Below are positions 1 to 22,577 of a DNA stretch of 22,577 nucleotides, piece after piece; positions within the stretch are counted from its first letter, which is position 1; each line of letters starts with the position of its first letter. The stretch comes from a virus, in IMG/VR virus record IMGVR_UViG_3300026533_000019, positions 1 through 22,577 of that record, one strand, 5' to 3'. Made by a program: the position numbers and the translations under genes. The notes below the pieces were generated by a model. It saw only the letters and a program-made list of their open reading frames with translations. It was not told where the DNA came from and ran no database searches.

Positions 1-50
1 TACAACTTAAAAAATTAATTTTTCAAAAAAAATATTTAAAAAAGAAACTA

Positions 51-90
51 AAAAAAGTTTTATATTTGAAAAAAAAGTTTTATATTTGAA
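51..90. repeat. Two tandem copies of a 20-bp operator-like repeat
   Basis: The 20-bp unit AAAAAAGTTTTATATTTGAA occurs twice head to tail (51-70 and 71-90) with no mismatch. The pair ends 11 bp before a TATAAT box at 102-107, so it covers the -35 region of the promoter for the repressor-like gene at 114. A third copy, 17 of 20 bases identical, lies just after that gene (434-453). This placement fits binding sites for the adjacent small protein (autoregulation), which is inference. Confidence 0.6.
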
Positions 91-101
91 AAAAATTAAG
101 A

Positions 102-107
102 TATAAT
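102..107 (+). promoter_or_regulatory. Candidate -10 box of the repressor-like gene
   Basis: A perfect TATAAT lies exactly six bases before the ATG at 114, which would put the transcription start at or next to the A of the start codon. No Shine-Dalgarno sequence is visible before this ATG. A leaderless mRNA, as for lambda cI made from pRM, is the simplest reading. In such an AT-rich region a chance TATAAT is possible. Confidence 0.5.
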
Positions 108-113
108 TCAATT

Positions 114-437
114 ATGAATAATAATAATGAGGAAATAATAAACGAACTTAACAGAATGGAATTATCAATAAAGCAAATAAAAGAATTTGTTGGTACAACA
201 GAAAATACAAAAATAATAAAAACAATAGGGGAGTTTGAAGAATCAATAAATAAAACTGCTTCCTTCTTATCTTCTAGTCAAAATCCAAATACTTTAAAAT
301 CTACAAAACATAGATTATTAAAAAAAGGTTCTTCACCAAGTGTAAATGAAGCATATCAAATTCAAGAAAAATTTGGCATACCAATCTATGCATGGAAAGA
401 TATAAATTGGTTTAAAAAATCTTTGCTACCTAAATAA
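114..437 (+). CDS. Small repressor-like protein with a diverged XRE-type C-terminal part
   Basis: A 107-residue protein, rich in Asn, Lys and Ile. The last 45 residues (TKHRLLKKGSSPSVNEAYQI, then a QEKFGIPIYAW segment) resemble helices 3-5 of Cro/CI (XRE) helix-turn-helix proteins, where a pattern like G-x-x-x-P-S-x-x-x-A-x-x-I precedes a GIP-W tail. The first half does not show a clear helix-turn-helix, so the domain is diverged or partial. It is the first gene of the window, has no visible ribosome-binding site, and is flanked on both sides by the 20-bp repeat. A phage repressor or Cro-like role is the best guess. The start at 114 rests on the TATAAT-N6-ATG arrangement; an internal ATG at 156 also lacks a ribosome-binding site. 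Confidence 0.6.
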   Translation: MNNNNEEIINELNRMELSIKQIKEFVGTTENTKIIKTIGEFEESINKTASFLSSSQNPNTLKSTKHRLLKKGSSPSVNEAYQIQEKFGIPIYAWKDINWFKKSLLPK

Positions 438-453
438 AAGTTTTAAAATTGAA
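434..453. repeat. Third, imperfect copy of the 20-bp repeat
   Basis: Positions 434-453 match the tandem unit at 51-90 in 17 of 20 bases and in the same orientation; the core AAAAGTTTTA and the final TTGAA are kept. It overlaps the last codons of the repressor-like gene. With the upstream pair it brackets that gene, as operators often do in lysogeny control regions. Confidence 0.45.
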
Positions 454-773
454 ACAATTTTATTTTATTTTAAGAAATATTACACTAAACTACAACTACA
501 AAAACATTTTCAAAACAAAATAAATAAAAATAATTTTTAAAAACATAATCTTTATTATTATTTTTCACACACAAAATGTGATGTTAGTTATATTTTAATC
601 TCACATTTGGAGCTTTTGACAAAAAAATCCAACCTAAAAGCTAGGGAATCTTAAAAAAAATGGTAGGATTTACAGTAAGAAAGTGAAGCTAAACACCTAA
701 ACTTAGTATACTAAGTTTAGAAAATCATTTATTTGAGCCATGTTAGCATGGTTCAAATAGCTAATTACAGCTA
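454..773. other. Gene-free stretch with a cluster of inverted repeats
   Basis: No credible reading frame occupies this interval. From 574 onward it holds inverted repeats: 574-581 with 601-608 (8 bp), 611-617 with 636-642 (7 bp), 625-634 with 662-671 (9 of 10 bp), the perfect 24-bp palindrome 697-720, a 12-bp stem 731-742 with 747-758 around a TTAG loop (one G.T pair), and 758-762 with 769-773. The AT-rich 454-573 part shows nothing I can name. Candidates are a structured non-coding RNA, a regulatory region for the integrase, or a site acted on as single-stranded DNA. The structure is seen; the function is unknown. Confidence 0.5.
697..720. repeat. Perfect 24-bp palindrome containing the recurrent AGTATACTAAGT word
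   Basis: Positions 697-708 are the exact reverse complement of 709-720. The word AGTATACTAAGT (705-716) inside it recurs at four more places in the early region. It lies about 125 bp before the likely integrase start and is followed by a strong hairpin at 731-758. It is a good candidate for a dimeric regulator site. Confidence 0.65.
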
Positions 774-796
774 GTGATATTTAAAAATAGAAATAG
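774..796. repeat. Left copy of a perfect 23-bp inverted repeat
   Basis: This 23-mer (begins GTGATATTTAAA, ends AGAAATAG) is the exact reverse complement of 2190-2212. The two copies enclose the integrase and the tRNA-derived att core, about 1.4 kb. It lies just upstream of the integrase promoter region, so it could be a regulator site used at both promoters, or one end of an invertible or mobile segment. Confidence 0.7.
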
Positions 797-832
797 TAAT
801 ATTTCTTTATGTTGTTATGTGTTAAAAATATT

Positions 833-838
833 TATAAT
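833..838 (+). promoter_or_regulatory. Candidate -10 box of the integrase gene
   Basis: TATAAT lies six bases before the ATG at 845, the same TATAAT-N6-ATG spacing as the repressor-like gene. A weak -35-like TTGTTA is at 812-817 with a short 15-bp spacer. There is no Shine-Dalgarno sequence before 845, so a leaderless transcript is plausible. Confidence 0.45.
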
Positions 839-844
839 ATCTTT

Positions 845-1945
845 ATGATGAAATCAAAAGATGGAATAACAATATATTTAGAAAAAGAGCGAAGTGGTAC
901 AACGTACATTAAGCTTAGGGCTTCTGTGGAGATTAGCGGTATAAAGAAAAATAAGCGAATAAGTACAGGCTTAATTTATACTCCAGAAAACCTGGAAACT
1001 ATAAAAGAAGAGGCTAGACCAATCTTTTATAAGAAACTCGGAATTCAGCTCCATGATAGCGTTAAGTTTGAAGACTTTTATCTTGATGCCTTGCAATATA
1101 TAAACATTAACTGTAATGCTGAGACAGCAAGAGACAGATTAGCAAAAGTAGAAAAATATATTTTACCATTCCTAAAAGAGCAAGATATAAAAAAGATAGA
1201 AGCTGGAGCAATTGAGCGTTGGCAATTAGACTTACTGAAAGTTATCTCTCCTGATCTAATGCGAAGAGTGAAGAGAATTTTAAAACGCCTCTTCACTCAC
1301 AGCATACTACTTGGATATAGGAGAGACAATCCAGTCGATGCTACTTCTAATATACGAAGCAGGAGTAGGAAGCCACATGAAATCTACACAAGGGACGAAG
1401 TTGTAAAAATGGTTAGCTATGCTGAACCGTGGTTAAGCGTTTGGATTTTGATTCAGTCAACACTTTGGCTTCGCTCTGGTGAGATGGTTGTTCTAAAATG
1501 GAACGATATAGATTTCGCTACAAGCATACTCTACGTGAACCGTGCTATACGACGTGGTGAGTTTAGAGAGCCAAAAACTGGTAAGCGTAAAGTAGAGATA
1601 CCTTCAACATTACTAAGTATACTAAGTTCCTACAAGTTGGAGGCAAAAGAGAGTAGTTGGCTTTTCCCTAATCCAAGAGGAGGGGAGAACTATTCTGATG
1701 CAAAGTTCGTCAATCAGAACTACTTTCAACCTCTACTTAAAAAGATAGGCATAAAATACAAAGGAATGTATGAGCTGAAACATACAGGAATAAGCCTGGT
1801 ATACTCTGCAAGTATTAAACCTGACTTTATAAGTCATCAAGCTGGACATAAAGATAAAGCTACATTTTTAAAATACTATGCTCAATTCATAAAAGATGAA
1901 GAAAGCATTAAAAAAGTTAATGAGATATTGAATTTTAACACATAA
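845..1945 (+). CDS. int: Tyrosine recombinase (phage integrase)
   Basis: The protein cuts and rejoins the phage att site with the host tRNA gene. From the ATG at 845 it is 366 residues: an N-terminal arm-binding-like part (to about 85), a SAM-like core-binding part (about 90-180), then the catalytic domain. Box I Arg is in TLWLRSGEMVVLKWNDID (Arg210). A Lys-rich beta-hairpin segment PKTGKRKVEIP follows. Box II reads YELKHTG, so the usual H-x-x-R positions carry Tyr309 and Lys312. GH (His335) and the nucleophile Tyr345 in FLKYYAQF are present. A longer frame opens at 809, but the first 12 codons lie over the promoter, so 845 (or 848) is preferred. The 3' end points at the att core about 85 bp downstream, the usual int-att layout. 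Confidence 0.93.
   Translation: MMKSKDGITIYLEKERSGTTYIKLRASVEISGIKKNKRISTGLIYTPENLETIKEEARPIFYKKLGIQLHDSVKFEDFYLDALQYININCNAETARDRLAKVEKYILPFLKEQDIKKIEAGAIERWQLDLLKVISPDLMRRVKRILKRLFTHSILLGYRRDNPVDATSNIRSRSRKPHEIYTRDEVVKMVSYAEPWLSVWILIQSTLWLRSGEMVVLKWNDIDFATSILYVNRAIRRGEFREPKTGKRKVEIPSTLLSILSSYKLEAKESSWLFPNPRGGENYSDAKFVNQNYFQPLLKKIGIKYKGMYELKHTGISLVYSASIKPDFISHQAGHKDKATFLKYYAQFIKDEESIKKVNEILNFNT
1616..1627. repeat. AGTATACTAAGT motif, copy 2 (inside int)
   Basis: An exact copy of the 12-bp word, read here as codons for Ser-Ile-Leu-Ser. The surrounding CTAAGTATACTAAG is a near-perfect dyad. Confidence 0.55.
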
Positions 1946-1946
1946 T

Positions 1947-1962
1947 TGACGTGCAAACGTCA
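1947..1962. other. Small inverted repeat after int
   Basis: TGACGT and ACGTCA form a six-base-pair stem around a GCAA loop directly after the integrase stop. There is no T-tract, so a terminator is not convincing. The overlapping GTGCAAACGTCATGC (1951-1965) resembles GTGCCAACGCATG at 2171-2183 on the other side of the att core, so these may be arm sites bound by the integrase or an excisionase. Confidence 0.35.
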
Positions 1963-1978
1963 TGCTTTAATAAAAGTT

Positions 1979-1990
1979 AGTATACTAAGT
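1979..1990. repeat. AGTATACTAAGT motif, copy 3 (between int and att)
   Basis: An exact copy of the 12-bp word in the 84-bp gap between the integrase stop and the tRNA-derived core. With the palindrome at 697-720 it places one non-coding copy on each side of int. Confidence 0.6.
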
Positions 1991-2028
1991 AGTGTTTTTA
2001 TGGTATTTAAGCGATGCCTCATCCACGT

Positions 2029-2074
2029 CCTCATAAGCCGGAGGTCGAGGGTTCGAGTCCCTCTCTTACTACCA
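2029..2074 (+). other. 3' half of a tRNA with CAT anticodon: attachment (att) core
   Basis: The segment reads as a tRNA from the anticodon loop (CTCATAA, anticodon CAT) through the 3' anticodon stem, variable loop, a perfect T arm (GAGGG / TTCGAGT / CCCTC at 2047-2063), the 3' acceptor strand TCTTACT, discriminator A and CCA (2072-2074). The 5' half is missing. No AGTAAGA acceptor strand lies upstream, and ACGTC before the loop does not pair with GCCGG after it. This is what an integrase that targets a tRNA 3' end leaves as its att core. Phage-type genes lie on both sides, so it may be attP of a circular or unintegrated genome, or the joint between two tandem elements. A 10-bp inverted repeat (1996-2005 with 2070-2079) brackets it. 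Confidence 0.75.
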
Positions 2075-2189
2075 TAAAATAACACTTCTTAACATACAAT
2101 CAAACAACATAAAAAAACATACTACAAAATAAACATCATGCGTCTGTCATGCAGTTTAAATATCTTTGATGTGCCAACGCATGGGGCTT

Positions 2190-2212
2190 CTATTTCTATT
2201 TTTAAATATCAC
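2190..2212. repeat. Right copy of the perfect 23-bp inverted repeat
   Basis: Exact reverse complement of 774-796. It lies 33 bp before the ATG of the next gene. Part of it can also pair locally with TTAAAAAATAGAAA at 2218-2231, which overlaps the AAAGGA ribosome-binding site of that gene and could limit its translation. Confidence 0.7.
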
Positions 2213-2244
2213 AAAAATTAAAAAATAGAAAGGAATACAACATA

Positions 2245-2604
2245 ATGTATCAACTATCGACTTCAACATCAACTCCTTTTTCTAAATTGTCCAGAACAGA
2301 TGATGTGTCATCTTGCACTCTTGACTATTCTCTCCCTTTTGAGGACTTTTTTAAGAGTGTGCGAAATATTAAGACAAATCGTAAAATTATTAAGCATAGC
2401 CATCGCTACTGGGTGCTTAGAGCGTTGTATAACGGCAACGTGATAGATGACTACGACAACAAACCTACAAATTTACAAAATCAAAATTTTATTAACAATG
2501 TTGTTCAGCGATGCAATGAGCTAATGAATAATTATGGGATTCCAGTTAAGAGTAGAAGGATGGATGGTATGAAATATCATGAATATTATTTAGAGAGGGA
2601 TTAG
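2245..2604 (+). CDS. Small phage protein with a winged-helix-like C-terminal half
   Basis: A 119-residue protein of unknown function. Residues 1-50 are polar with a Ser/Thr-rich start. Residues 52-117 (from HRYWVLRALYNG, through FINNVVQRCNELMNNYGIPV, to KYHEYYL) read like a compact winged-helix fold: two helices, a recognition helix and a basic hairpin SRRMDGMKYHEYY. This suggests DNA binding, perhaps an early regulator or excisionase-type role given its place just after att. The AAAGGA ribosome-binding site at 2229-2234 is 10 bases from the ATG and lies inside an AT-rich inverted repeat. I do not recognise a named family. Confidence 0.65.
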   Translation: MYQLSTSTSTPFSKLSRTDDVSSCTLDYSLPFEDFFKSVRNIKTNRKIIKHSHRYWVLRALYNGNVIDDYDNKPTNLQNQNFINNVVQRCNELMNNYGIPVKSRRMDGMKYHEYYLERD

Positions 2605-2608
2605 AATG

Positions 2609-2678
2609 ACCTTATGCAAGTTTCTTTAGAGGGACTTGCATAAGGTTAGTATGTGTTGAGAAGAGACACATTCTAACC
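2609..2678 (+). promoter_or_regulatory. Two overlapping, mutually exclusive hairpins
   Basis: Hairpin 1 is a perfect 13-bp stem (2609-2621 with 2634-2646) with a 12-base loop. Hairpin 2 (2644-2656 with 2666-2678) pairs 12 of 13 bases. They share bases 2644-2646, so both cannot form fully at once. Neither is followed by a T-tract. They fill the gap between the gene ending at 2604 and the gene starting at 2704, which suggests attenuation, RNA processing or a protein-binding RNA rather than a simple terminator. Confidence 0.55.
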
Positions 2679-2703
2679 AAATTTAACTTAAGAAGGATTT
2701 GGC

Positions 2704-2970
2704 ATGAAGAAATTTTATGTTTTTTATCAGACTTTTATTTTTACAAATGTTGGAGAAGTGGCACTTAAGGTAGTGCAGGGTGTACCAGATGGACACTCTT
2801 TGCTGGCTTCTAAATTTAATGGTGTTTATACTACTTGGAACCTAGTGTGTGAGACCAGACACTTAAAGAATGTAATGGAACGCAGTGTAAATTTTGACTT
2901 CATACTGCTTAATGTTTTCAAAACTGCTCCAATCACAGCTCGTCGCGATGATGTTATGGAGGTATTATAA
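2704..2970 (+). CDS. Hypothetical small early protein
   Basis: An 88-residue protein with no family I recognise. It is aromatic-rich at the N terminus (KKFYVFYQTFIFTN) with beta-like hydrophobic alternation, and has a short acidic C-terminal end. No signal peptide or clear membrane helix. The ribosome-binding site AAGGA at 2693-2697 is well spaced. Its stop overlaps the next ATG by one base (TAATG), so it heads a run of four small translationally coupled genes that leads into dnaB. Confidence 0.7.
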   Translation: MKKFYVFYQTFIFTNVGEVALKVVQGVPDGHSLLASKFNGVYTTWNLVCETRHLKNVMERSVNFDFILLNVFKTAPITARRDDVMEVL

Positions 2971-3248
2971 TGAACCGTTCAAAAAAACAAAAGCTTCACT
3001 CTAAAAAAATCAAAAACTTAATACTACTATGCGTTGAAAAAAACCTTACAACAATCAATCATACAATATGCTTTGAGTTTCACGGGAATGTAAACAAGAT
3101 AGAAATCTTGTTTTTTAGACATGGATGGAGAGAGGACAGATTTGCGACAGTACGTTTCGTTTTCTCTTTAGATGTGAAAGTTCTTGGGTTTGACCACTCT
3201 ATAAATAATATTGACAGAGCTTTATTGTTTGTGGGAGGTTTGAGATAA
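2970..3248 (+). CDS. Hypothetical small early protein
   Basis: A 92-residue protein, basic in its first 17 residues (RSKKQKLHSKKIKN), then alternating beta-like stretches (ICFEFHGNVNKIEILFFRHGW, ATVRFVFSLDVKVLGF). Function unknown. It overlaps both neighbours by one base. Its last codons and the junction GGGAGGTTTGAGATAATG are nearly the same as the junction after the next gene, so the same ribosome-binding block is reused down this cassette. Confidence 0.7.
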   Translation: MNRSKKQKLHSKKIKNLILLCVEKNLTTINHTICFEFHGNVNKIEILFFRHGWREDRFATVRFVFSLDVKVLGFDHSINNIDRALLFVGGLR

Positions 3249-3517
3249 TGGCCAACTTACTAACTTCTACAGACGTAGCAAAGAGAGCAGGGCTATCTGC
3301 TGTTAAATTAAACGCAATTCTTTACAGTAAAGGCATTTTAAATAAGAGGGGGCGACCTTCTAAAAAAGACCCAAAAGTTTTTAAGCCTTTTTGGGAGATA
3401 TTGGAATTTAAATTTGGAAAAAACATTCCGAGTCATCATGGTGGTGGGGTTGTTAAATTTTACCCTCATATGGTTGATGAGCTTCTGGTTGAAGCTGGAT
3501 TGGGAGGGTTAAGATAA
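3248..3517 (+). CDS. Small putative DNA-binding (helix-turn-helix) protein
   Basis: An 89-residue protein. Residues 5-30 (LTSTDVAKRAGLSAVKLNAI, then LYSKGILNKRGRPSKK) look like a helix-turn-helix followed by a basic loop, as in the C-terminal part of phage antirepressors (KilA-C / ANT type) and in MerR-like DNA-binding segments. The rest (FWEILEFKFGKNIP...HHGGGVVKFYPHMVDELL) resembles the wing and last helix of such domains. A stand-alone regulator is likely; its target is unknown. It is coupled to both neighbours by one-base overlaps. The SD-like GGGAGG at its 5' junction is strong. Confidence 0.65.
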   Translation: MANLLTSTDVAKRAGLSAVKLNAILYSKGILNKRGRPSKKDPKVFKPFWEILEFKFGKNIPSHHGGGVVKFYPHMVDELLVEAGLGGLR

Positions 3518-3795
3518 TGAATCTACCAACAAAACTAGACATGATAGAGTATGCTAAGGAGCTAACCGAAGCTTCTATAGTTAACCAGGACGGGTGGAGT
3601 GTTTCTGTTTTTACAGATTTAGATGTAATTACAGTAAGCGTAAATAGAAAGAGTTTTTATGTTTTTATTCGCTCCGATGAAGATGTCAGAAAAGCAGATG
3701 CCTACTATGAACTTGCTCTAGAAGCTATTGTAAACGAGATAAGTGAAGCTGTTGCGATAGAGAGAGCTGTTGATATAAGGAGAGAGTATGCATAA
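3517..3795 (+). CDS. Hypothetical small early protein
   Basis: A 92-residue acidic protein of unknown function. It has N-terminal helix-like residues 5-18, two or three beta-like strands (WSVSVFTDLDVITVSVN, SFYVFIRS), and a long C-terminal amphipathic helix (about 50-88, rich in Ala, Glu and Ile). No nucleic-acid-binding or catalytic motif is visible. It follows an SD block GGGAGG, and its last three codons overlap the first codons of dnaB by 8 bases, so the two are probably translated together. Confidence 0.7.
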   Translation: MNLPTKLDMIEYAKELTEASIVNQDGWSVSVFTDLDVITVSVNRKSFYVFIRSDEDVRKADAYYELALEAIVNEISEAVAIERAVDIRREYA

Positions 3796-5170
3796 TCCTC
3801 CTACAGATATTCAACTTTATAATCTAAATATAGAGAGATCCATTCTCTCTGCTGTTCTTTTTGAACCAGAGAGTTTAGAAGAGATATCTTTTAAATTAAA
3901 GTCTGAGGATTTCTTTCTTCCCTTCCATCGCCATCTTTTTGATGCGATGCTTAAGCTTGAGGGAGAGCGAAAACCGATAGATGAAACTTTTCTACAAAGT
4001 ATACTAAGTAAGAGCAAGAACTATGATGAACTTGCTTTTCTTGATGTTCTTAGTGCTAACCCTGTAAGCAACTATAATTCATATATAGATGAGATTATAG
4101 AATACAGCAAGAGTAGAAAAATATTTTCACTTGGAATAAATCTTAAAAAAATGATTATCGAAGATGATAAAAGCTCTGATGAAGCTATTGCTACTGCTTC
4201 GAGTACTCTTGATGCTATTGATGCACATACTACAGAGGGTGAGCAGAGCATAGAAGAGACATGTAATAATTTTATGGATTATCTTGAGAAGGCTAAAGAG
4301 CATAATGGTATAGTGGGTATCAGTACAGGTATCAGCTCACTTGATAAGTTAGACGTAATACTTAATCCTGGTGACTTATGTATCATCGGTGCTAGACCGA
4401 GTGTTGGTAAGACGGCTCTTGCTACGAGCATGATAGCGAATATGATTTTAGATGGAGAGAAGATACTTTTCTCATCTTTAGATATGGATAGCAATATACT
4501 TATTATGCGTTTAGTTGCAACTATAAGTGGAGAGACCATTTGGAGCTTAAAAAAGGGTAGACCAAACGATACTAAGGCTGTCACTCATGCTCTTGAGCTT
4601 ATTAAGAAATCACTTATCATTCATAACAAAAAAAATGTTAGCTGGAATGAGCTTAGATCTAAAGCTAAAAGAGTTTTTAGAAAAAATCCAGATGTTACCG
4701 TTTGGTTTGTAGATCATATCGGGAAGATTAAATACAAAGAGCCTATGTTTCGTCGATTTGAGATAGGAGAGGTTACATCTGGAATGAAAGCCATCGGTGA
4801 AGAGATGGGTGTGGTTCCTATTGCTTTGACTCAGCTCAATAGAGACTCAGTTAGCAGAGTAGGGAACAAGCCAAATCTAGGAGACCTAAAAGAGAGTGGA
4901 GCCATAGAAGAGGATGCGACTCATGTTATTTTACCTCATAGAGAAGCCTATCATCAGAAGGGGCAAAATGAACGTGAACCAGATGTGACTGATGCAGAGT
5001 TAATTGTTGCTAAAAATCAGACTGGTCCAACAGGTGTTGCTAAGTGTAAGTTCTATGCTAAGTATACTAAGTTTACTGATGAGAGTCATTTTGAGATTGA
5101 GTATGAGGATGATGGGTCGTCGTTGAATGATGCTGATAATACTATAGATATGCCAAGGGTTTTAGGATGA
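3788..5170 (+). CDS. dnaB: Replicative DNA helicase, DnaB family
   Basis: Hexameric 5'-3' helicase that unwinds DNA at the phage replication fork. It has 460 residues, typical of the family. The N-terminal DnaB domain (about 6-105) includes NIERSILSAVL and the HRHLFDAML helix. The RecA-like motor has Walker A GARPSVGKT (201-209), Walker B VWFVDH (Asp309), H3 LTQLNR (Gln349) and the DnaB-specific NLGDLKESGAIEEDA (363-377). The usual FSLEM motif, whose Glu is catalytic in the family, reads FSSLDM, an Asp in place of Glu (Asp232). Carrying its own helicase frees the phage from host DnaB recruitment. SD AAGGAG at 3778-3783. The next gene overlaps by 4 bases (ATGA) and encodes the likely initiator. 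Two copies of the 12-bp AGTATACTAAGT word lie inside the gene. Confidence 0.95.
   Translation: MHNPPTDIQLYNLNIERSILSAVLFEPESLEEISFKLKSEDFFLPFHRHLFDAMLKLEGERKPIDETFLQSILSKSKNYDELAFLDVLSANPVSNYNSYIDEIIEYSKSRKIFSLGINLKKMIIEDDKSSDEAIATASSTLDAIDAHTTEGEQSIEETCNNFMDYLEKAKEHNGIVGISTGISSLDKLDVILNPGDLCIIGARPSVGKTALATSMIANMILDGEKILFSSLDMDSNILIMRLVATISGETIWSLKKGRPNDTKAVTHALELIKKSLIIHNKKNVSWNELRSKAKRVFRKNPDVTVWFVDHIGKIKYKEPMFRRFEIGEVTSGMKAIGEEMGVVPIALTQLNRDSVSRVGNKPNLGDLKESGAIEEDATHVILPHREAYHQKGQNEREPDVTDAELIVAKNQTGPTGVAKCKFYAKYTKFTDESHFEIEYEDDGSSLNDADNTIDMPRVLG
3998..4009. repeat. AGTATACTAAGT motif, copy 4 (inside dnaB)
   Basis: An exact copy of the 12-bp word, read here as Ser-Ile-Leu-Ser in the N-terminal domain of DnaB. 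Confidence 0.55.
5061..5072. repeat. AGTATACTAAGT motif, copy 5 (inside dnaB)
   Basis: An exact copy of the word near the 3' end of dnaB. It is read in a different codon phase from copies 2 and 4 (Lys-Tyr-Thr-Lys), which argues that the DNA word rather than the peptide is conserved. Flanking bases extend the dyad to CTAAGTATACTAAG. Confidence 0.55.
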
Positions 5171-6024
5171 AAATACATTACATACAGTTACCGACTGATT
5201 ACATCGGGGAGTTAAAGCGAAATGGAGAGTCTGAAAAGGCTCGTGCTTTTATGGAGTATTTCTATGATTTGCAGATTATTGCACTTGAGGAGCGTGAGCC
5301 TAACAGTATTAGATACTATGCTAAGAGTTGGGGTAACTGGGAGCGTGGTAAGAGTATAAAGCCTAAGAGCAACAGTGTCGTAGTTAAATGGATAGATGAG
5401 TTTACATTGCAGATTGAGAAGTATTATGCTTCATGGAGCTTAGTTAATTCACGCAACAGTGCCAGGGTTAAAAATAGCTCTGGTTCAAAACCAAAAGAAC
5501 GCTTAAAGAACGAAGAAAGAACGCTTAAAACGTCTACAGAGTCCGAAAACAAGGAGTTTACAGAAACTAAAAGAACGCTTAAAGAACAGCAAAAGAACGA
5601 AGAATATAATTTTAATGATGATGATAAGACGCTTCGCAGAGATTATGAAAATATGTATTTTATATTTAGAGCTTTCAATGGTTCTTATGCTGGTAATAAA
5701 GAAGATGGATTTATTGCTTATAAAGAGCTGGTTAACAGATTGCCTTACAGAGAGATGAGCAAAGCTATTAAACTTTACTTCTCCGATAACAGTGTGGTTA
5801 AAAAGTGTGGTATAGAAAAATTCTTTAAGAACTCTGTTTACTTAGATTATACGACTAAAAGAGTATCTGTGTTTATAGATGGCAACTGGGTAGATGGTTC
5901 TTACCTTGGCGAATCATTCTTGGCTGATAATGGTGAAGAGATGGTATTGAGTGCTGAAGGCTTTGCAAAGTTCTTTGCAGAGGATAAAGTTCGATTGTTG
6001 GACTTAGATGAGAGTGTGGCTTAG
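5167..6024 (+). CDS. Putative phage replication initiator (lambda O-like layout)
   Basis: A 285-residue protein in three parts. Residues 1-95 look like a winged-helix DNA-binding domain (KARAFMEYFYDLQII, SIRYYAKSWG, NSVVVKWIDEFTLQIEKYYASW). Residues 100-155 are a polar, Lys/Glu/Arg-rich linker with repeated KNEE and RTLK words. Residues 160-285 form a second folded part (YENMYFIFRAFNG, EKFFKNSVYLDY). The linker codons contain iteron-like DNA repeats and are followed by an AT-rich patch. That is the architecture of lambda gpO, where the origin lies within the initiator gene. The gene follows dnaB with a 4-base ATGA overlap. It probably binds the origin and loads the phage helicase. A helicase-loader or primosome protein without initiator activity is the alternative. 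Confidence 0.65.
   Translation: MKIHYIQLPTDYIGELKRNGESEKARAFMEYFYDLQIIALEEREPNSIRYYAKSWGNWERGKSIKPKSNSVVVKWIDEFTLQIEKYYASWSLVNSRNSARVKNSSGSKPKERLKNEERTLKTSTESENKEFTETKRTLKEQQKNEEYNFNDDDKTLRRDYENMYFIFRAFNGSYAGNKEDGFIAYKELVNRLPYREMSKAIKLYFSDNSVVKKCGIEKFFKNSVYLDYTTKRVSVFIDGNWVDGSYLGESFLADNGEEMVLSAEGFAKFFAEDKVRLLDLDESVA
5493..5628. other. Iteron-like repeats plus AT-rich patch: candidate replication origin
   Basis: A 19-bp word AAAAGAACGCTTAAAGAAC occurs exactly at 5493-5511 and 5569-5587. The shorter GAACGCTTAAA also occurs at 5519-5529. AAAGAACGAAGAA follows the first copy (5505-5517) and recurs at 5591-5603. The first copy is read in one codon phase and the other two in another, so selection on the peptide does not explain the match. 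Directly after comes an AT-rich stretch (about 5603-5628) suitable for melting. By analogy with lambda ori this is the best origin candidate in the window. Confidence 0.6.
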
Positions 6025-6025
6025 G

Positions 6026-6160
6026 ATGATGGGAATATATATTAATTTACATAACTGGGTTTATAGTAATTTTAGCAGGAACGTAACTGTTTCTATGCAA
6101 AGCGTATACATCCTATGCAACACTATATCGATGAGATTAAAAATAAACCTGCTGGGATGA
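6026..6160 (+). CDS. Very small ORF after the initiator gene (doubtful)
   Basis: A possible 44-residue product starting MMGIYINLHNWVYSNFS. The ATG lies one base after the initiator stop codon and has no clear ribosome-binding site. It overlaps the better small ORF at 6115-6252 in another phase. The early part of this frame and the later part of the other frame could once have formed one protein, since the second frame is open from 6076. I cannot decide between a real gene, a frameshifted remnant and chance. Confidence 0.25.
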   Translation: MMGIYINLHNWVYSNFSRNVTVSMQSVYILCNTISMRLKINLLG

Positions 6161-6252
6161 TAATGCTATGTATGTTAACCAGGGGAGTAGTAGGTGAAGA
6201 GTTTGATGTGTGTGAGGAGTTTAAATCTTTTATTTGGTGGGCTTATAGATGA
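6115..6252 (+). CDS. Small unknown ORF ahead of the tail protein gene
   Basis: A 45-residue frame from the ATG at 6115 (begins MQHYIDEIKNKPAGMIMLCM, ends EEFKSFIWWAYR). The composition looks protein-like, and its stop codon overlaps the next gene's ATG in an ATGA, the usual coupling in this genome. The same frame is open back to 6076 (residues QERNCFYAKRIHP), so the N terminus may be longer, or the gene may carry a frameshift relative to the 6026 frame. No family recognised. Confidence 0.45.
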   Translation: MQHYIDEIKNKPAGMIMLCMLTRGVVGEEFDVCEEFKSFIWWAYR

Positions 6253-6800
6253 TGAATTTTACATTCAATCCAAAAGGCTTTGACACTCTAGCAGAACAGC
6301 TTGACACAGCAGTAGCACTTAAAGCAACGGTGCGAACATTAAACGAAGAGGGTAGACGTTTTGGAACTCAAACCGTCAAGTACGTTCGAGAAGAGTACAA
6401 CATCAAGGCTTCTACACTTAAGAGCTACATTAAGCAGAACAGAGCGAATAAAAATGAATTAGAATTTACTATTGTTATTCGCTCTTCACCACTTTCTCTC
6501 TCTCGTTTCGGTCTACGTTCCAAGAACGTTAGAACAAAGAGAGGAATGAGAAAGGGCGTGACGGTTAAAGTGTTTCGTAAGAAGAAGCGAAAGATAGTTA
6601 AACATGCGTTTAGTCCAACGGGTAAGCAGATATTTAAGAGAGAAGGGAGTCAGCGACTACCAATCTCTAAGCTAACCACGCTCTCTGCACCACAGATGTT
6701 TAAGAGTGATACCATAGAGGATGGGTACGAGACAGTAGAACAACATCTACCTAAAACATTTGAAAGAAATTATAATTTTTATCTTTCAAAAATAAAATAG
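6249..6800 (+). CDS. Z: Minor tail protein, lambda GpZ family
   Basis: A 183-residue basic protein. It matches the GpZ (prophage minor tail protein Z) pattern: an N-terminal helix with RTLNEEGRRFGTQTVKYVRE, then YNIKASTLKSYIKQNRANKN, IRSSPLSLSRFGLRS, a basic KGVTVKVFRKKKRKI hairpin, a HAFSPTGKQIFKREG segment and the closing LPISKLTTLSAPQMF. GpZ-type proteins act in tail completion and joining. Lambda Z (192 residues) is of similar size. Its position before the terminase genes is unusual, since in lambda it follows the head genes. The start may be 6249 or the adjacent ATG at 6252. Confidence 0.8.
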   Translation: MMNFTFNPKGFDTLAEQLDTAVALKATVRTLNEEGRRFGTQTVKYVREEYNIKASTLKSYIKQNRANKNELEFTIVIRSSPLSLSRFGLRSKNVRTKRGMRKGVTVKVFRKKKRKIVKHAFSPTGKQIFKREGSQRLPISKLTTLSAPQMFKSDTIEDGYETVEQHLPKTFERNYNFYLSKIK

Positions 6801-6805
6801 GTTCT

Positions 6806-6925
6806 TTGGGGAAAGTTTCGCCTATACGGTCACTTGTGAGCGTGGAAAACGCACGGTTTTGGGCGTTTGAAACTCCTTGACAAAATTAAAATAACACTTG
6901 ACACTTGACAGAAAGGAGAATTATT
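6806..6925. promoter_or_regulatory. Structured gap before the small terminase: candidate packaging (cos-type) region
   Basis: The gap between the GpZ-like gene and the small terminase is locally richer in G and C than its surroundings. It holds nested short inverted repeats (GCGT/ACGC around 6840-6853, AAAAC/GTTTT around 6847-6860, GTTTC/GAAAC as outer arms) followed by three TTGAC words (6877, 6898, 6905), two of them in tandem ACTTGAC. Lambda cos lies in the same place relative to the small terminase gene, and GpA-family terminases cut cos. The position supports cos; no cut site can be read from sequence alone. A TTGACA-type promoter for the packaging genes is the alternative. Confidence 0.35.
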
Positions 6926-7549
6926 ATGTTACTTACTCAAAGTAAATTTGCAGAGTTGATTGGCACGACTAGACAGACTGTTGGGAACCTTGTGAAGAAT
7001 GGTACGCTTCATCTTACTAATAAAAAAATAAAAACAGATGATGCATTTAAAATTTTAAAAAGTACAGGACAACTTTCTGCTGATAATAAGTTTATCCCAA
7101 AAAAAAGTTCTCCTGTTATTCATAGCTCTCCAAGTATCTTCGATGTTGACCCTGCCTCTTACCCAACACTTTCTGCAGATGAAAAAAACAAACAAGAGAA
7201 GCAGTTACTTGAGAGAGCGATGGAGCAACAAGCCAAAGAGCTTGGGCTGTCTCTTTCAGATATTCAGACTCCAGAGATAGAAGCGATGGAAAAGTGGGAA
7301 GTAGAAAGATTTAAAATCTTTTACCAAGGTATGCTGGAGAGAGCGAAGTATTTTAAAGAGATTGGTCGGCTTGTAGATGTGGAGGAGGTAAAAGAAGAGC
7401 AGTTTGGTATTTCTCGAACTGTTCGTGATGCTGTTATGAGCATAAGCAACAGGATAGCTCACAAGCTTATTAATAAAACAGAGATTCATGAGATTAAGCT
7501 GATCCTTGATGCTGAAGCTTTGAAAGTTATGGAGAATTTGAGTTTATGA
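6926..7549 (+). CDS. Small terminase subunit, Nu1-like
   Basis: A 207-residue protein. Its first 55 residues (SKFAELIGTTRQTVGNLVKN, then a beta wing and TDDAFKILK) form the winged helix-turn-helix typical of lambda Nu1, which binds the packaging site and positions the large subunit. The middle is helical and charged (about 85-150), fit for oligomerisation and contact with the large terminase. The ATG at 6926 has AAAGGAG upstream with good spacing; an in-frame TTG at 6905 lies before the SD and is not used. The next gene overlaps by 4 bases. Unlike in lambda, about 2.4 kb with a methyltransferase separates it from the large subunit. Confidence 0.75.
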   Translation: MLLTQSKFAELIGTTRQTVGNLVKNGTLHLTNKKIKTDDAFKILKSTGQLSADNKFIPKKSSPVIHSSPSIFDVDPASYPTLSADEKNKQEKQLLERAMEQQAKELGLSLSDIQTPEIEAMEKWEVERFKIFYQGMLERAKYFKEIGRLVDVEEVKEEQFGISRTVRDAVMSISNRIAHKLINKTEIHEIKLILDAEALKVMENLSL

Positions 7550-7818
7550 TATTTGAAAAAGAACTAAAAGAAGAACTAATAAAAACAGAAGTAGAGCTTA
7601 TAAAATTAAGTTTTACCATAAGCGATAAGCTTGGAGAGACTGCTGTAGAGTCAGCTCTAAATAATTTTTATGATTATTTATGTAGAGGTTTAGGTAAAGA
7701 GAGGTTTCTCTCTTTTATGAATATGGAATATAGAGAGTATGTGATTAATTTAACTCAAGCAATTCCTGAAGAGTTGTTACCGAAGGCTATGCCTGTAATT
7801 TTAGGAGTGAAGAGATGA
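7546..7818 (+). CDS. Hypothetical phage protein
   Basis: A 90-residue acidic, mostly helical protein (KELKEELIKTEVELIKLSF, ETAVESALNNFYDYLCRG, LTQAIPEELLPKAMPVIL). No recognised family or motif. It starts in an ATGA overlap with the small terminase and ends in an ATGA overlap with the next membrane-protein gene, so it belongs to the packaging transcription unit. Confidence 0.65.
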   Translation: MIFEKELKEELIKTEVELIKLSFTISDKLGETAVESALNNFYDYLCRGLGKERFLSFMNMEYREYVINLTQAIPEELLPKAMPVILGVKR

Positions 7819-8036
7819 GAAAAATATATAATTTCGTAATAAAAATAACAGAAAGAAAGTTTGAAAGAGTTCTTACTTTTTGGTTTATTATATTTGCCAT
7901 AATGGCTCTTTTGGTGTGGGTTATTGAAGCAGTATTAGGAGTTTCTCACGACCCACAATGGTATGATATTGTTTATATGGTTGGTTGTGTTTATGGTTAT
8001 TTTGGAACGCTTAAGCGATTATCGGAGGTTATCTAA
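7815..8036 (+). CDS. Small membrane protein
   Basis: A 73-residue protein with a basic N terminus (RKIYNFVIKITERKFER), one long hydrophobic helix (VLTFWFIIFAIMALLVWVIE, about 19-38) and a shorter second one (YDIVYMVGCVYGYFG, about 51-65). It would sit in the inner membrane with both ends probably cytoplasmic. Function unknown; a superinfection-exclusion or lysis role would be guesswork. It overlaps its neighbours by 4 and 1 bases. Confidence 0.65.
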   Translation: MRKIYNFVIKITERKFERVLTFWFIIFAIMALLVWVIEAVLGVSHDPQWYDIVYMVGCVYGYFGTLKRLSEVI

Positions 8037-9349
8037 TGCAAATAGTCTACAAAAACCCAAAAGACCTAAAAAAATACCCTCAAAATGCCAAAGAGCATCC
8101 ACCAGAGCAGATACAACAGATAGCAGACAGTATAAAAAAATACAAGTTTAATGACCCAATAGCACTTGATGAGAACAACATCATTATCGAGGGGCATGGT
8201 CGGCTTGATGCTGCACTATTGCTTGAGATGGATGAAGTGCCAACCATTGTTCTTTCACATCTTAGTGAAGACGAGAAGAGAGCCTACATCATCGCACACA
8301 ACAAACTAACACTTAATACAGGGTTTGATATGGACGTGCTACTAAAAGAGCTTACAAGCCTTTATGAGAACGGTTTTGACCTGCTTCTAACTGGGTTTGA
8401 TGATATGGAGCTTGAAGAGTTGAAAATAGGCTTCACTCCACCCGTTATAGACTATGATAAAGCAGATGATGTGCCAACGGTTGAAGAGGAGCAGGTGGTT
8501 ATTAAAGAGGGTGCCCACATCATCTTAAATGACCACGTCCTCTATTGTGGTGATGCAACAAAAAAGGAGGATGTGCTTTATCTGTTAGAGGGTACAGCTC
8601 CTAAGCAAAATACCATTCACTTCTTAAGTGACCCACCATACGGCATATCGTATGACCCAAAACTTCCTAAATATGGCATGATAAAAAATGATGATAAGTT
8701 TTTAAACTTCATACCACTAGCCAAACGCTACACCAATGGCTTTTTTATGATTTGGACTTCTTACCAAGTGGTCGATGAGTGGATTAAGCGTACCAAAAAA
8801 TCATTTGAGAAGATTACCAATATGATAATTTGGCACAAAGGTGGTGGTGGCATGGGTGACTGTGCCAAAACTTTAGCCACAGACTACGAAATAGCCTTGG
8901 TCGTGAACCGTGGTAATCAGCTCCAAAGTGGGCGTGGTTCTTCTGTGTGGCAGTACCAAAACGATGCTAAGAAAGACTTTGTAAAAAAGGCAAAGAAAGC
9001 AGAACTACAGAGCATATTAGATCACATGATAGACGGTGAGACGCTCTGGAGAGTCAAAAAGGACAACACAGCTACCTACCTGCACCCAACGCAGAAGCCA
9101 GTAGAGATAAATGAGAGAGCATTACTTAACTTTACCAAGAAAGGAGATTTTGTCTGTGACTTTTTTACAGGAAGTGGTAGCAACCTCATAGCGTGTGAAA
9201 ACATGGGTCGAAAGTTTAGAGGCATGGAGCTTGATATCAAATATATGCAAGTGATAGTGGAGAGGTGGTGTGAATATACCTCGGTCGATACGATTGTGAT
9301 TAATGGTCAAGAAGTTTCTTGGTCGGAGTATAAGGAGGGTAATATATGA
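8036..9349 (+). CDS. DNA methyltransferase with N-terminal ParB-like domain
   Basis: A 437-residue protein. Residues 1-95 are a ParB/sulfiredoxin-type domain (LKKYPQNAKEHPPEQIQQIA, EGHGRLDAALLL at 52-63). Residues 155-437 are an amino-methyltransferase: DPPYGISY (199-206, catalytic motif IV) comes before DFFTGSGS (375-382, SAM-binding motif I), the order of beta-class enzymes. DPPY points to adenine-N6 or cytosine-N4 methylation. Phage enzymes of this ParB-MTase type are usually orphans without a restriction partner, and none is seen here. Likely uses are protection from host restriction or marking of phage DNA around packaging, given its place between the two terminase genes. A one-base overlap with the gene before and an ATGA overlap with the gene after place it in the same unit. 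Confidence 0.92.
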   Translation: MQIVYKNPKDLKKYPQNAKEHPPEQIQQIADSIKKYKFNDPIALDENNIIIEGHGRLDAALLLEMDEVPTIVLSHLSEDEKRAYIIAHNKLTLNTGFDMDVLLKELTSLYENGFDLLLTGFDDMELEELKIGFTPPVIDYDKADDVPTVEEEQVVIKEGAHIILNDHVLYCGDATKKEDVLYLLEGTAPKQNTIHFLSDPPYGISYDPKLPKYGMIKNDDKFLNFIPLAKRYTNGFFMIWTSYQVVDEWIKRTKKSFEKITNMIIWHKGGGGMGDCAKTLATDYEIALVVNRGNQLQSGRGSSVWQYQNDAKKDFVKKAKKAELQSILDHMIDGETLWRVKKDNTATYLHPTQKPVEINERALLNFTKKGDFVCDFFTGSGSNLIACENMGRKFRGMELDIKYMQVIVERWCEYTSVDTIVINGQEVSWSEYKEGNI

Positions 9350-9516
9350 CAACAGCACATGATATAGTTTTGATAATTGATAGCAAAACAGGTAAAGAAG
9401 AAATAGAAAAAAGTCACAAAGAATTAAAAAATAAACTTAAAGAACTAGATAGAGATGAGCTTGAAGATATAGCTTTAAAGTTGGCTTATTCTTTAAGTAT
9501 TTTAAGAGAGGAGTAG
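9346..9516 (+). CDS. Small hypothetical protein
   Basis: A 56-residue protein (begins MTTAHDIVLIIDSKTGKEE, ends SLSILREE). It has a strong ribosome-binding site AAGGAGGG 5 bases before the ATG and an ATGA overlap with the methyltransferase stop. The beta-strand then TGKEE start followed by a charged helix resembles the next small protein (VVINVWTGKEYFVGIEK), so the two may be related. Function unknown. Confidence 0.65.
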   Translation: MTTAHDIVLIIDSKTGKEEIEKSHKELKNKLKELDRDELEDIALKLAYSLSILREE

Positions 9517-9523
9517 AGAGCTA

Positions 9524-9673
9524 ATGGAGTATGTTGTTATTAATGTTTGGACAGGTAAAGAATATTTTGTAGGAATAGAAAAACAGTGCAAGGAATACAT
9601 GAAGAAAGAGGGATTGATTGTTGATAATATTTTTAAATGCCTAACAAGAGAAGAGATAAAAAAGTATATTTAA
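9524..9673 (+). CDS. Small hypothetical protein
   Basis: A 49-residue protein (begins MEYVVINVWTGKEYFVGIEK, ends LTREEIKKYI). GAGGAG lies upstream at 9509-9514, and the stop is immediately followed by the ATG of the next gene. Its start resembles the preceding 56-residue protein in layout (strand, TGKE turn, strand or helix). No known family recognised. Confidence 0.6.
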   Translation: MEYVVINVWTGKEYFVGIEKQCKEYMKKEGLIVDNIFKCLTREEIKKYI

Positions 9674-9931
9674 ATGACCCACAACGCTCAAAAAGTACAG
9701 CTTCTCGCCATGCTCTTGTTTCGAGCTGATGAGATAGAGCGATACTTTGAGCTTGAATCTCCAAATTTAAGCTTTGAGGAGGTGGTCGAAAAGGGTAGGC
9801 TTGGTCAGCAGGTAGAGACTAGAAAAGCTCTTTTTGAAAGAGTAAAAAGAGGTGAGGTATTTGCCATCAAAGAGTGGCATCGACTTGAAGAGAAGATTGA
9901 ATTTGAGATTAGGAAGAGGGAGTTAAAATGA
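9674..9931 (+). CDS. Hypothetical protein directly upstream of the large terminase
   Basis: An 85-residue helical, charged protein (KVQLLAMLLFRADEIERYFE, ETRKALFERVKRGEVFAIKEW, then a Glu/Lys-rich helix). The R-x-A-L-x-x-x-x-x-x-G-x-x-x-A-I-x-x-W pattern is reminiscent of C-terminal segments of small terminase subunits. With the Nu1-like gene present, a second terminase accessory is only one option. It overlaps the large terminase by 4 bases (ATGA). Confidence 0.6.
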   Translation: MTHNAQKVQLLAMLLFRADEIERYFELESPNLSFEEVVEKGRLGQQVETRKALFERVKRGEVFAIKEWHRLEEKIEFEIRKRELK

Positions 9932-11778
9932 GTGTAGTCTTACAAGCATGGAAAGACGGCTTAAGACCAGACCCACAAATCGGAGTCGATGAGTGGCGTA
10001 ACAAATACCGTTATCTTTCAGAGTCTGGTGCAAGTGAACATGGTAAGCTAGATAGCAACCGAACACCTTACACCATAGAGATAGCAGAGCATCTCTCACC
10101 ACAGAGTCCTACACAGCAGGTGTTTGTCTGCAAAGGGGTACAGGTAGCCATTACAGAGCTGGGTAACGACTTCTTATTTACCTATGCACACTTGTATAGT
10201 AGACCGATGATGGGAGTACTCCCCACTAAGCCACTTCTTGAAGACCATGTCAAGAGTAAAGTTTGGTCAGGGGTAAACGCATCACCTGTACTTAAAAATG
10301 AGGTTTTTTATCCCATTAAACAAGGCTCTACCAAAACTTCATCGACGCTCAAAATGGTTATGAGAAAGAGTGGTACAACACTCAACTGGCGTTGGGCAGA
10401 ATCTAAGTCTACTTACGCTTCAGTGACTTATGGGGCAATATTAGCATCAGATGTAGACAGATGGCCCGATGATGTAGAGGGGGAGGGAGACCCTATCTCC
10501 CTGCTACAGAAAAGGCTTGATACCTTTGGGATTAGAAAGAAATTTTTTTGTGAATCTTCACCGACAAAGCGTAGAAACTCTAAGATTTACGCTGAGTCGA
10601 TGTACGGTGACAGAAACTACTACAACATGAAGTGTCCAACCTGTGCCGAGTACATAAAATTTTCAGAAGAGAATTTTGTCTATGAGTATGACAAAGAGAG
10701 CTATGAGCTTCTCTCTGATGTGATTTATAGATGCCCTCACAATGACTGCATCATCAAAGAGTATGAGAAAACAGAGATGATGGCTCTTGAAAATGGGGCT
10801 AAGTGGATTCCTGAAAATCCAAATTTTAGGAATCCACTTAGAAAAACTTACTTTTTGCCCTCTTACTACTCTCCTTGGAAGAGTTGGTTTGATGTATTTA
10901 CAGAATATTTGATTGCTCTTGGTGAAAAAGAGAAGTATGGGAAAACAAAAAAAATAAAAGTTTGGTACAACACCATTGACGGCTCCGTCTATGACGACGA
11001 ATCCGAAAAAGAAGTACAAACAACCCTTGACCAGCTCCTACAAAGAAGAGAGGAATATACAAAGGTTCCTGAAGATGTTGTGCTACTAAGTGCAGGAGTA
11101 GATACACAAGGAAATAGATTTGAAGTGAGCGTCTATGGTTGGGTAAACGATAGAGAGCGATATCTAATCGCACACTACATCGTTACAGGTGACCCAAAAG
11201 ATCCAACAACTCAAAAACTTTTAGATGACCTGTTGTTTAAAAAGCTTTTTGAGTGTGAAAATGGTGGAGCTATGAAAATATTTACATCTGCCATCGACAC
11301 AGGAGGAGACAAAACCCAGCATGTATACAATTACGTGCTTAGACGTTATAAAAATCATAGATTATTCGCAGTAAAAGGAGGTAAAAGTATAGATGACCCA
11401 ATAGTAAAAGACTTTAGCATTATAAAAACAAAGAAAAATAGACCGTTAAAGCTCTATATCTTGGGTGTAAACTCTGCAAAAGATGACATTATATCCGATG
11501 TAGAAGAGCAGTTTGGAACACGTTATATACACTTTCCACATAATATTCAAAAATTTTATGAAGGTGTTGTAATGGAGCATGATATGAGTGACGAGGCATT
11601 TTTGAACCAGTTCCTGCAAGAGACCAAAGATGAAGAGGGGAGATGGAAAAACGAACTGAAAAGACGAAATGAAGCCCTAGACTGTGCCGTGTATGCCTCG
11701 GCAGCAGTCAAGTGTGTAAAAGGGTTAGACTTGGACAAATTGGCGAAGCTGGGTAAACGAGCTTTTTATAAAAGATAA
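9928..11778 (+). CDS. A: Large terminase subunit, lambda GpA family
   Basis: The ATP-driven motor and nuclease that cuts concatemeric DNA and pumps it into proheads. It has 616 residues (lambda A 641). Family signposts are DEWRNKYRYLSESGASEHGK (21-40), the ATP-binding segment CKGVQVAITE (68-77), a Walker B-like ASDVDRWPDD (173-182), a Cys4 zinc-type cluster CPTC (236-239) with CPHNDC (269-274), and nuclease acidic sites AGVDTQGNRFEVSVYGW (Asp392), SAIDTGGD (Asp457) and NEALDCAVYA (Asp585). The usual family segment reads like KG-x-Q-x-G-x-TE; here the third glycine is Ala74. The protein is otherwise complete. It sits after the ParB-MTase block, separated from the Nu1-like gene. The family implies cos-type packaging. 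Confidence 0.93.
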   Translation: MSVVLQAWKDGLRPDPQIGVDEWRNKYRYLSESGASEHGKLDSNRTPYTIEIAEHLSPQSPTQQVFVCKGVQVAITELGNDFLFTYAHLYSRPMMGVLPTKPLLEDHVKSKVWSGVNASPVLKNEVFYPIKQGSTKTSSTLKMVMRKSGTTLNWRWAESKSTYASVTYGAILASDVDRWPDDVEGEGDPISLLQKRLDTFGIRKKFFCESSPTKRRNSKIYAESMYGDRNYYNMKCPTCAEYIKFSEENFVYEYDKESYELLSDVIYRCPHNDCIIKEYEKTEMMALENGAKWIPENPNFRNPLRKTYFLPSYYSPWKSWFDVFTEYLIALGEKEKYGKTKKIKVWYNTIDGSVYDDESEKEVQTTLDQLLQRREEYTKVPEDVVLLSAGVDTQGNRFEVSVYGWVNDRERYLIAHYIVTGDPKDPTTQKLLDDLLFKKLFECENGGAMKIFTSAIDTGGDKTQHVYNYVLRRYKNHRLFAVKGGKSIDDPIVKDFSIIKTKKNRPLKLYILGVNSAKDDIISDVEEQFGTRYIHFPHNIQKFYEGVVMEHDMSDEAFLNQFLQETKDEEGRWKNELKRRNEALDCAVYASAAVKCVKGLDLDKLAKLGKRAFYKR

Positions 11779-11795
11779 TAGAATAGGGGAAAATT

Positions 11796-11993
11796 ATATC
11801 AAAGAAAGAGAAAGATACTTTAGAGAAGAGAACGCTTGTAAGAATTTACTTACCGATAAAGCTAGAACTTGCTATAGATAGATTTATGGCTAAAAAAGGC
11901 ATTAATAAAGGGGAAGCGATAGAAAAGTTCCTTATGGGGTCAGATACGCTGCAAGAGGAAGTAAGAGAAGTTGAAAGGATTTATACGTTTTAA
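11796..11993 (+). CDS. Ribbon-helix-helix protein with no ordinary start codon
   Basis: A 65-codon frame. Residues 11-50 (KRTLVRIYLPIKLELAIDRF, then MAKKGINKGEAIEKFLMG) fit the ribbon-helix-helix fold of Arc/CopG-type repressors: a strand, a helix, a GI turn and a second helix. The frame is open only from 11787 (TAG at 11784-11786) and contains no ATG, GTG or TTG before the domain. An AGGGGA ribosome-binding site (11785-11790) sits 2 bases from ATT (11793) and 5 bases from ATA (11796), so initiation at ATA or ATT is possible; otherwise the gene has lost its start. The ATG at 11889 would begin inside the domain. It could regulate the late genes that follow. Confidence 0.5.
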   Translation: MSKKEKDTLEKRTLVRIYLPIKLELAIDRFMAKKGINKGEAIEKFLMGSDTLQEEVREVERIYTF

Positions 11994-12003
11994 CAGACGA
12001 TAA

Positions 12004-22360: not shown

Positions 22361-22577
22361 TGGATTATGAGTTAATAATGAATACGTTTAATCGTATGAA
22401 AGCCAATCTTTGGAATTTTTTAACATTTATTCCAAAGTGGACAGCAACTACTCCAGCAGACATAGAACTGGTCTATGTCGATGATGCAGGTGTAGAGAGT
22501 AGGGAGATGGTTCCCAATGCTCTAAAACTTATAGAGAACCAAGGTGGAACCGAGGATGAGTTTATAGAGACTCTTAC
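22360..22577 (+). CDS. Tail-fibre region protein, 5' part only (runs off the window)
   Basis: An open frame of 72 codons reaching the right edge. GTG start with strong AAAGGAGG at 22345-22352, overlapping the previous stop by one base; an ATG lies six codons in. The visible part includes FNRMKANLWNFLTFIPKWTA then TTPADIELVYVDDAG. It probably belongs to the tail-fibre set, but I do not recognise a family from this fragment. Confidence 0.65.
   Translation, partial: MDYELIMNTFNRMKANLWNFLTFIPKWTATTPADIELVYVDDAGVESREMVPNALKLIENQGGTEDEFIETL

Follow-up and report, generated by a model that had tools for sequence, protein, structure and literature searches.

A five-copy near-palindromic word confined to the int-att-replication module of a phage: candidate dispersed operators

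Why does a single 12-bp word recur five times at one end of a phage sequence? In the window, i.e. the whole stretch of 22,577 nucleotides that we analysed (IMG/VR record IMGVR_UViG_3300026533_000019), an exact search places AGTATACTAAGT on the + strand at 705, 1616, 1979, 3998 and 5061, confirming all five positions of the original prediction. The only other copy in the window is the reverse reading on the - strand at 701, which exists because a perfect 24-bp palindrome encloses the first site. The octamer AGTATACT likewise occurs five times in the window, always at these sites, and right of 5077 the window holds no match to AGTATACTAAGT with up to two mismatches. The sites spread over 4.4 kb, all of them within the int-att-replication module, where the gene order is integrase, att core, early genes and DnaB helicase. 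The landmarks of this region are:

114..437, + strand, gene for a small helical protein with homologues in G400, G001 and G401 (see below); the ‘repressor-like’ gene of the original prediction
845..1945, + strand, tyrosine-recombinase integrase (int), reading frame open from 809
2029..2074, + strand, att core, taken as such because it is a 46-bp 3' tRNA fragment that follows int and is identical in the relative G001 (L099)
3788..5170, + strand, DnaB-like replicative helicase, carrying sites 4 and 5

No complete tRNA was found in the window. The region holds further structures. A perfect 23-bp inverted repeat, GTGATATTTAAAAATAGAAATAG, stands upstream of int (774-796) and, reversed, upstream of the first early gene (2190-2212), possibly as a shared operator or as the end of an invertible segment. 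After the first early gene there is a 19-pair hairpin (2607-2648) that the scan calls terminator-like. The protein of that gene (2245-2604) gave a poor folding model (pLDDT 44), and the protein at 3248-3517, 49% identical in G001, weakly resembles a KilAC/antirepressor domain.

The window appears to continue into a second contig, IMGVR_UViG_3300026533_000022 (G400; L226/L241), which we take as adjoining because of exact matches at both ends: the last 127 bp of the window (22451-22577) are the first 127 bp of G400, and the last 105 bp of G400 are window 483-587. Together they would imply a circle of ~38.8 kb, although one not exactly closed. Tail genes and leftward genes are found on G400, together with a second allele of gene 114-437. 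The shared stretch 483-587 is noncoding and identical in G400, against only 49% identity for the product of the gene next to it; this DNA may be strongly conserved or may have been exchanged recently. AGTATACT is absent from G400, so that the claimed restriction of the word to the early region holds across both contigs.

Could the copies have accumulated by chance? Markov models of orders 1-4 give 0.004-0.007 expected exact copies in the window, which bears out the earlier estimate of well under one, and by log-likelihood AGTATACTAAGT ranks first among all 12-mers of the window. In 300 simulated windows, counting 12-mers with at least three G/C and copies at least 100 bp apart, no 12-mer exceeded three copies and five were never reached. 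The same holds for the wider form of the sites, with five near-palindromes clustered in the window against a shuffled maximum of two. Every copy of AGTATACTAAGT is embedded in a 16-bp near-palindrome, ACTWAGT-AT-ACTAAGT, made of two abutting ACTWAGT boxes that are each palindromic and have their centres 9 bp apart. The right box is invariant across the five sites and the left one varies. ACTWAGT occurs nine times in the ~39 kb of window plus G400, seven times inside the five sites. The sites are:

697..720, no strand, site 1, palindrome CTAAACTTAGTATACTAAGTTTAG (the longest perfect palindrome of the window, 24 bp; as a 16-mer ACTTAGTATACTAAGT), holding the word at 705-716 on the + strand and at 701-712 on the - strand, in the intergenic DNA upstream of int
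1612..1627, + strand, site 2, ACTAAGTATACTAAGT, within int, codons AGT ATA CTA AGT (SILS)
1975..1990, + strand, site 3, AGTTAGTATACTAAGT, in the intergenic DNA that separates int from the att core
3994..4009, + strand, site 4, ACAAAGTATACTAAGT, within dnaB, SILS codons AGT-ATA-CTA-AGT
5057..5072, + strand, site 5, GCTAAGTATACTAAGT, within the 3' part of dnaB, KYTKF codons

As a terminator, 697-720 was considered and dropped: the scan finds one on the - strand only, and all genes here are on the + strand.

Three of the five sites are genic (site 2 in int, sites 4 and 5 in dnaB), and it might therefore be asked whether protein coding keeps them. They do occupy two codon phases, as had been noted (phase 0 at sites 2 and 4, phase 1 at site 5). 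Among 35 genes that we picked from the ORF table, the protein sequence allows AGTATACTAAGT at four coding-strand places, and three of the four carry it, the chance per permitted place being 0.4% or 2.3% with the codon usage of the window. Synonymous recoding yielded a mean of 0.05 copies and three copies in none of 3000 trials, so the earlier view that coding does not explain the copies is upheld: the five-site word is under selection on the DNA, not on the protein alone. One observation points the other way. The relative G401 (L228), which has DnaB and integrase homologues, contains a single AGTATACT, and its position corresponds by homology to site 5. The protein retains its KYT motif at this position, and it may be the protein sequence that has preserved the octamer. 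For the set as a whole, chance or coding constraint is contradicted by the enrichment and codon-aware tests, and we regard it as ruled out for all practical purposes.

A different origin of the word would be a motif of the host chromosome. The closest GenBank terminase relative is that of Sulfurimonas phage SNW-1 (36.5%), and the integrase relatives include Nitratiruptor phages; for these reasons the host is probably a member of the Campylobacterota. When the density of the word was checked in this presumed host phylum, only six exact copies of AGTATACTAAGT appeared in 150 Campylobacterota genomes in total, and when one mismatch was allowed the 16-mer was present in 6 of 397 genomes, in unrelated contexts. 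A host-wide chromosomal motif is thereby rejected for this presumed host phylum. Being nearly absent from these genomes, the word is the phage's own.

The relatives that have most of the layout in common, G001 (L099; terminase 86%), G401 and SNW-1, show no comparable dispersed array, and exact AGTATACTAAGT is absent from both G001 and SNW-1. Nor did the same array turn up elsewhere in viral contigs: a 14-mer palindrome search returned 91 stretches with at most three octamers each and a 15-mer search 86 stretches with at most two words each, in both cases mostly from unrelated phages. The DnaB or the integrase on its own led to no close relative in viral contigs, and a plasmid megablast with window 1-12000 gave no match. 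Another high-ranking repeated word, AACACCTGTACC in G401, was dismissed for its inconsistent context.

In the unrelated phages the same 14-15-mers lie in intergenic, promoter-like places, and the TATACT within the word resembles a -10 hexamer on both strands. Might the sites then be promoter elements? We consider this very improbable, since a sigma-70-type scan of 430-2700 found no promoter-like match at the sites, and those in dnaB and int head no gene.

Altogether the five copies are almost certainly landing sites of a phage-specific DNA-binding protein, either a silencer or a segregation protein. Two abutting ACTWAGT boxes per site make a dimer the most likely binder. Starting from the observed non-randomness, DNA-level selection, phage specificity and confinement of the word, we infer a regulator that would act on the int-att-replication module. 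The best single reading, to which we give a probability of about 0.4, is that the sites are dispersed operators of such a phage regulator, with a partition site as the main rival. From 697-720 and 1975-1990 the predicted regulator would govern the promoter of int and the intergenic DNA that surrounds the att core ahead of the early genes. Within int and dnaB it would stop an elongating polymerase or loop distant sites together. The proposed net outcome is that integration and replication genes stay silent in the lysogen.

This dispersed-operator reading is supported by the near-palindromic form of the sites, as in dimer operators, and by the two intergenic sites that flank int, one on each side. 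Operators of the lambda CI type are normally clustered at promoters. The window sites share with them the near-palindromic, dimer-type form but are spread over 4.4 kb, three of them genic, rather than clustered at lytic and lysogenic promoters. Tight clusters of three near-palindromes within ~110 bp do occur in two other phages of the group (L101, 4395-4520; L108, 7748-7844) and are probably their CI-type operators, and the contrast between these compact arrangements and the wide, partly genic one counts against our reading. So does the lack of a comparable array in G001, G401 and SNW-1. Moreover, the early operon has no site directly at its start (the nearest is 266 bp upstream of ATG 2245), and the 114-437 gene has none upstream. 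It could also be that the 23-bp repeat GTGATATTTAAAAATAGAAATAG, placed ahead of both int and the early operon, is the real operator instead.

Which protein might bind? The original prediction nominated the product of 114-437. This protein has no match in Pfam or NCBIfam and a single PHROG match that is weak and irrelevant. Its AlphaFold model is all-helical (pLDDT 82) and has no PDB match at E<=0.001; a second structural look, limited to 16 chains (VIA), gave a best Z of 2.1. The homologues in G001 and G401 occur without exact AGTATACTAAGT, and the G400 version has 49% amino acid identity. The gene is flanked by repeats of its own, AT-rich, AAAAGTTTTATATTTGA-like and spaced by 20 bp (30-114 and 413-477), possibly its auto-operators. 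With neither family nor PDB match, with homologues that lack the word and with different repeats around the gene, its nomination as the binder is not borne out in detail.

The suggested likeness to stoperators needs closer comparison. In cluster A mycobacteriophages such as L5 and Bxb1, as here, one word runs in one direction along the phage genome (PMC9283540, PMC6550527). In L5 a monomer binds asymmetric 13-mers, of which a genome has more than twenty, placed in promoters and in short gaps between genes (PMC9283540); for cluster A as a group the number is 20-30 per genome. Those of the window, in contrast, are 16-bp near-palindromes, one a perfect 24-bp palindrome; there are only five of them in 4.4 kb and none in G400, and three lie well inside int and dnaB. 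True L5-type stoperators, directional sites at which a repressor halts elongation, would agree with five copies that all run in the direction of transcription, dispersed through the early region. However, the shared direction of the words, correct in that all five 12-mers are on the + strand, carries little weight because the ACTWAGT box is palindromic, and with four informative sites the agreement has a chance of 1/8. Strict identity with the L5 system is not supported, and we judge it improbable; the likeness drawn here to L5, and equally to pMF1, N15 and RK2, is one of form.

Accessory sites for the action of the integrase or an excisionase were considered as well. Three of the five sites are at or near int and att, one of them between the candidate left arm and the core, but the two in dnaB are 2-3 kb off, and GACGTGCAAACGTCATGC (1948) and GATGTGCCAACGCATGG (2168), which flank the core, look more like arm sites. 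This makes an accessory role quite unlikely. Short related words at 1948-1965, 2137-2154 and 2168-2184, on both sides of the att core, are candidate integrase arm sites; in G001 the core is flanked by a different word pair, containing CGTCACTAT.

The main rival, a dispersed parS-like centromere of the kind described for N15, RK2 and pMF1, which would stabilise an extrachromosomal form of the phage, gains from a comparison with a further relative, IMGVR_UViG_3300004241_000321 (G402; L112, L246, L247), whose terminase is related. A near-palindrome scan of the relatives found one clear dispersed array, in G402; the remaining dispersed sets were GC-rich words in GC-rich loci or had three copies only. 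G402 carries six near-copies of the 16-bp palindrome TTTTCCCGCGGGAAAA (control 0); one of them lies in parB and another near parA, and the remainder are spread. Its ParB (ParB_N + HTH_ParB) and ParA were confirmed, ParA being found in G402 only among the 41 records tested; an integrase and an S24-type repressor are encoded as well. G402 is thus probably an integrating phage with a partition system, and the dispersed palindrome array seen in this terminase group is probably a partition array, despite the S24-type repressor that G402 encodes too. Like the array in the window, it consists of a 16-bp palindrome in copies scattered across kilobases, most of them to the left of the terminase genes, in a phage with an integrase; unlike it, it uses a different word, most of its sites are intergenic, and ParA and ParB are present.

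Published centromeres provide a second parallel: in prophage N15 and in plasmids RK2 and pMF1 a few sites are dispersed around replication or control genes, and some of those of pMF1 lie inside ORFs (PMC3235114). Repeated self-complementary sites dispersed in the replicon are what we find in the window, too. Those three replicons, however, have ParA and ParB, and no ParA was found in the window and G400. The ParA profile PF13614, positive in 14 of 14 control genomes, had no hit in these two contigs, outside of which the window strain's own left arm lies. The sole ParB-like gene recognised, in a gene-by-gene scan that stopped short of the tail region of G400, is at 8036-9349 and encodes a fusion of a ParB-like domain and an N6/N4 DNA methyltransferase, 91% identical at the DNA level in G001, which does not have the word; and the phage has int and att. 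The partition idea of the original prediction thus gains a precedent in G402 but is weakened for the window by the absence of ParA from these two contigs, and we consider it possible but rather unlikely.

Two functions might also be combined. In a phage that lacks ParA, a dispersed dimer site in int and dnaB could silence as well as organise the prophage DNA, with one protein that would block elongation in the integration-replication module and also bridge the sites. Such a system would be the palindromic equivalent, in an unrelated group of phages, of the stoperators of mycobacteriophages. We offer this as a speculative and doubtful reading. Few phages are known to have dispersed sites of the repressor or centromere kind, and a clean case from this phage group, with such sites kept inside int and dnaB, would be a natural setting in which to weigh partition against repression by roadblock or looping. 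The comparison with G402 furthermore suggests that partition and immunity systems of metagenomic phages can be found by scans for dispersed palindromes, with no prior knowledge of the protein.
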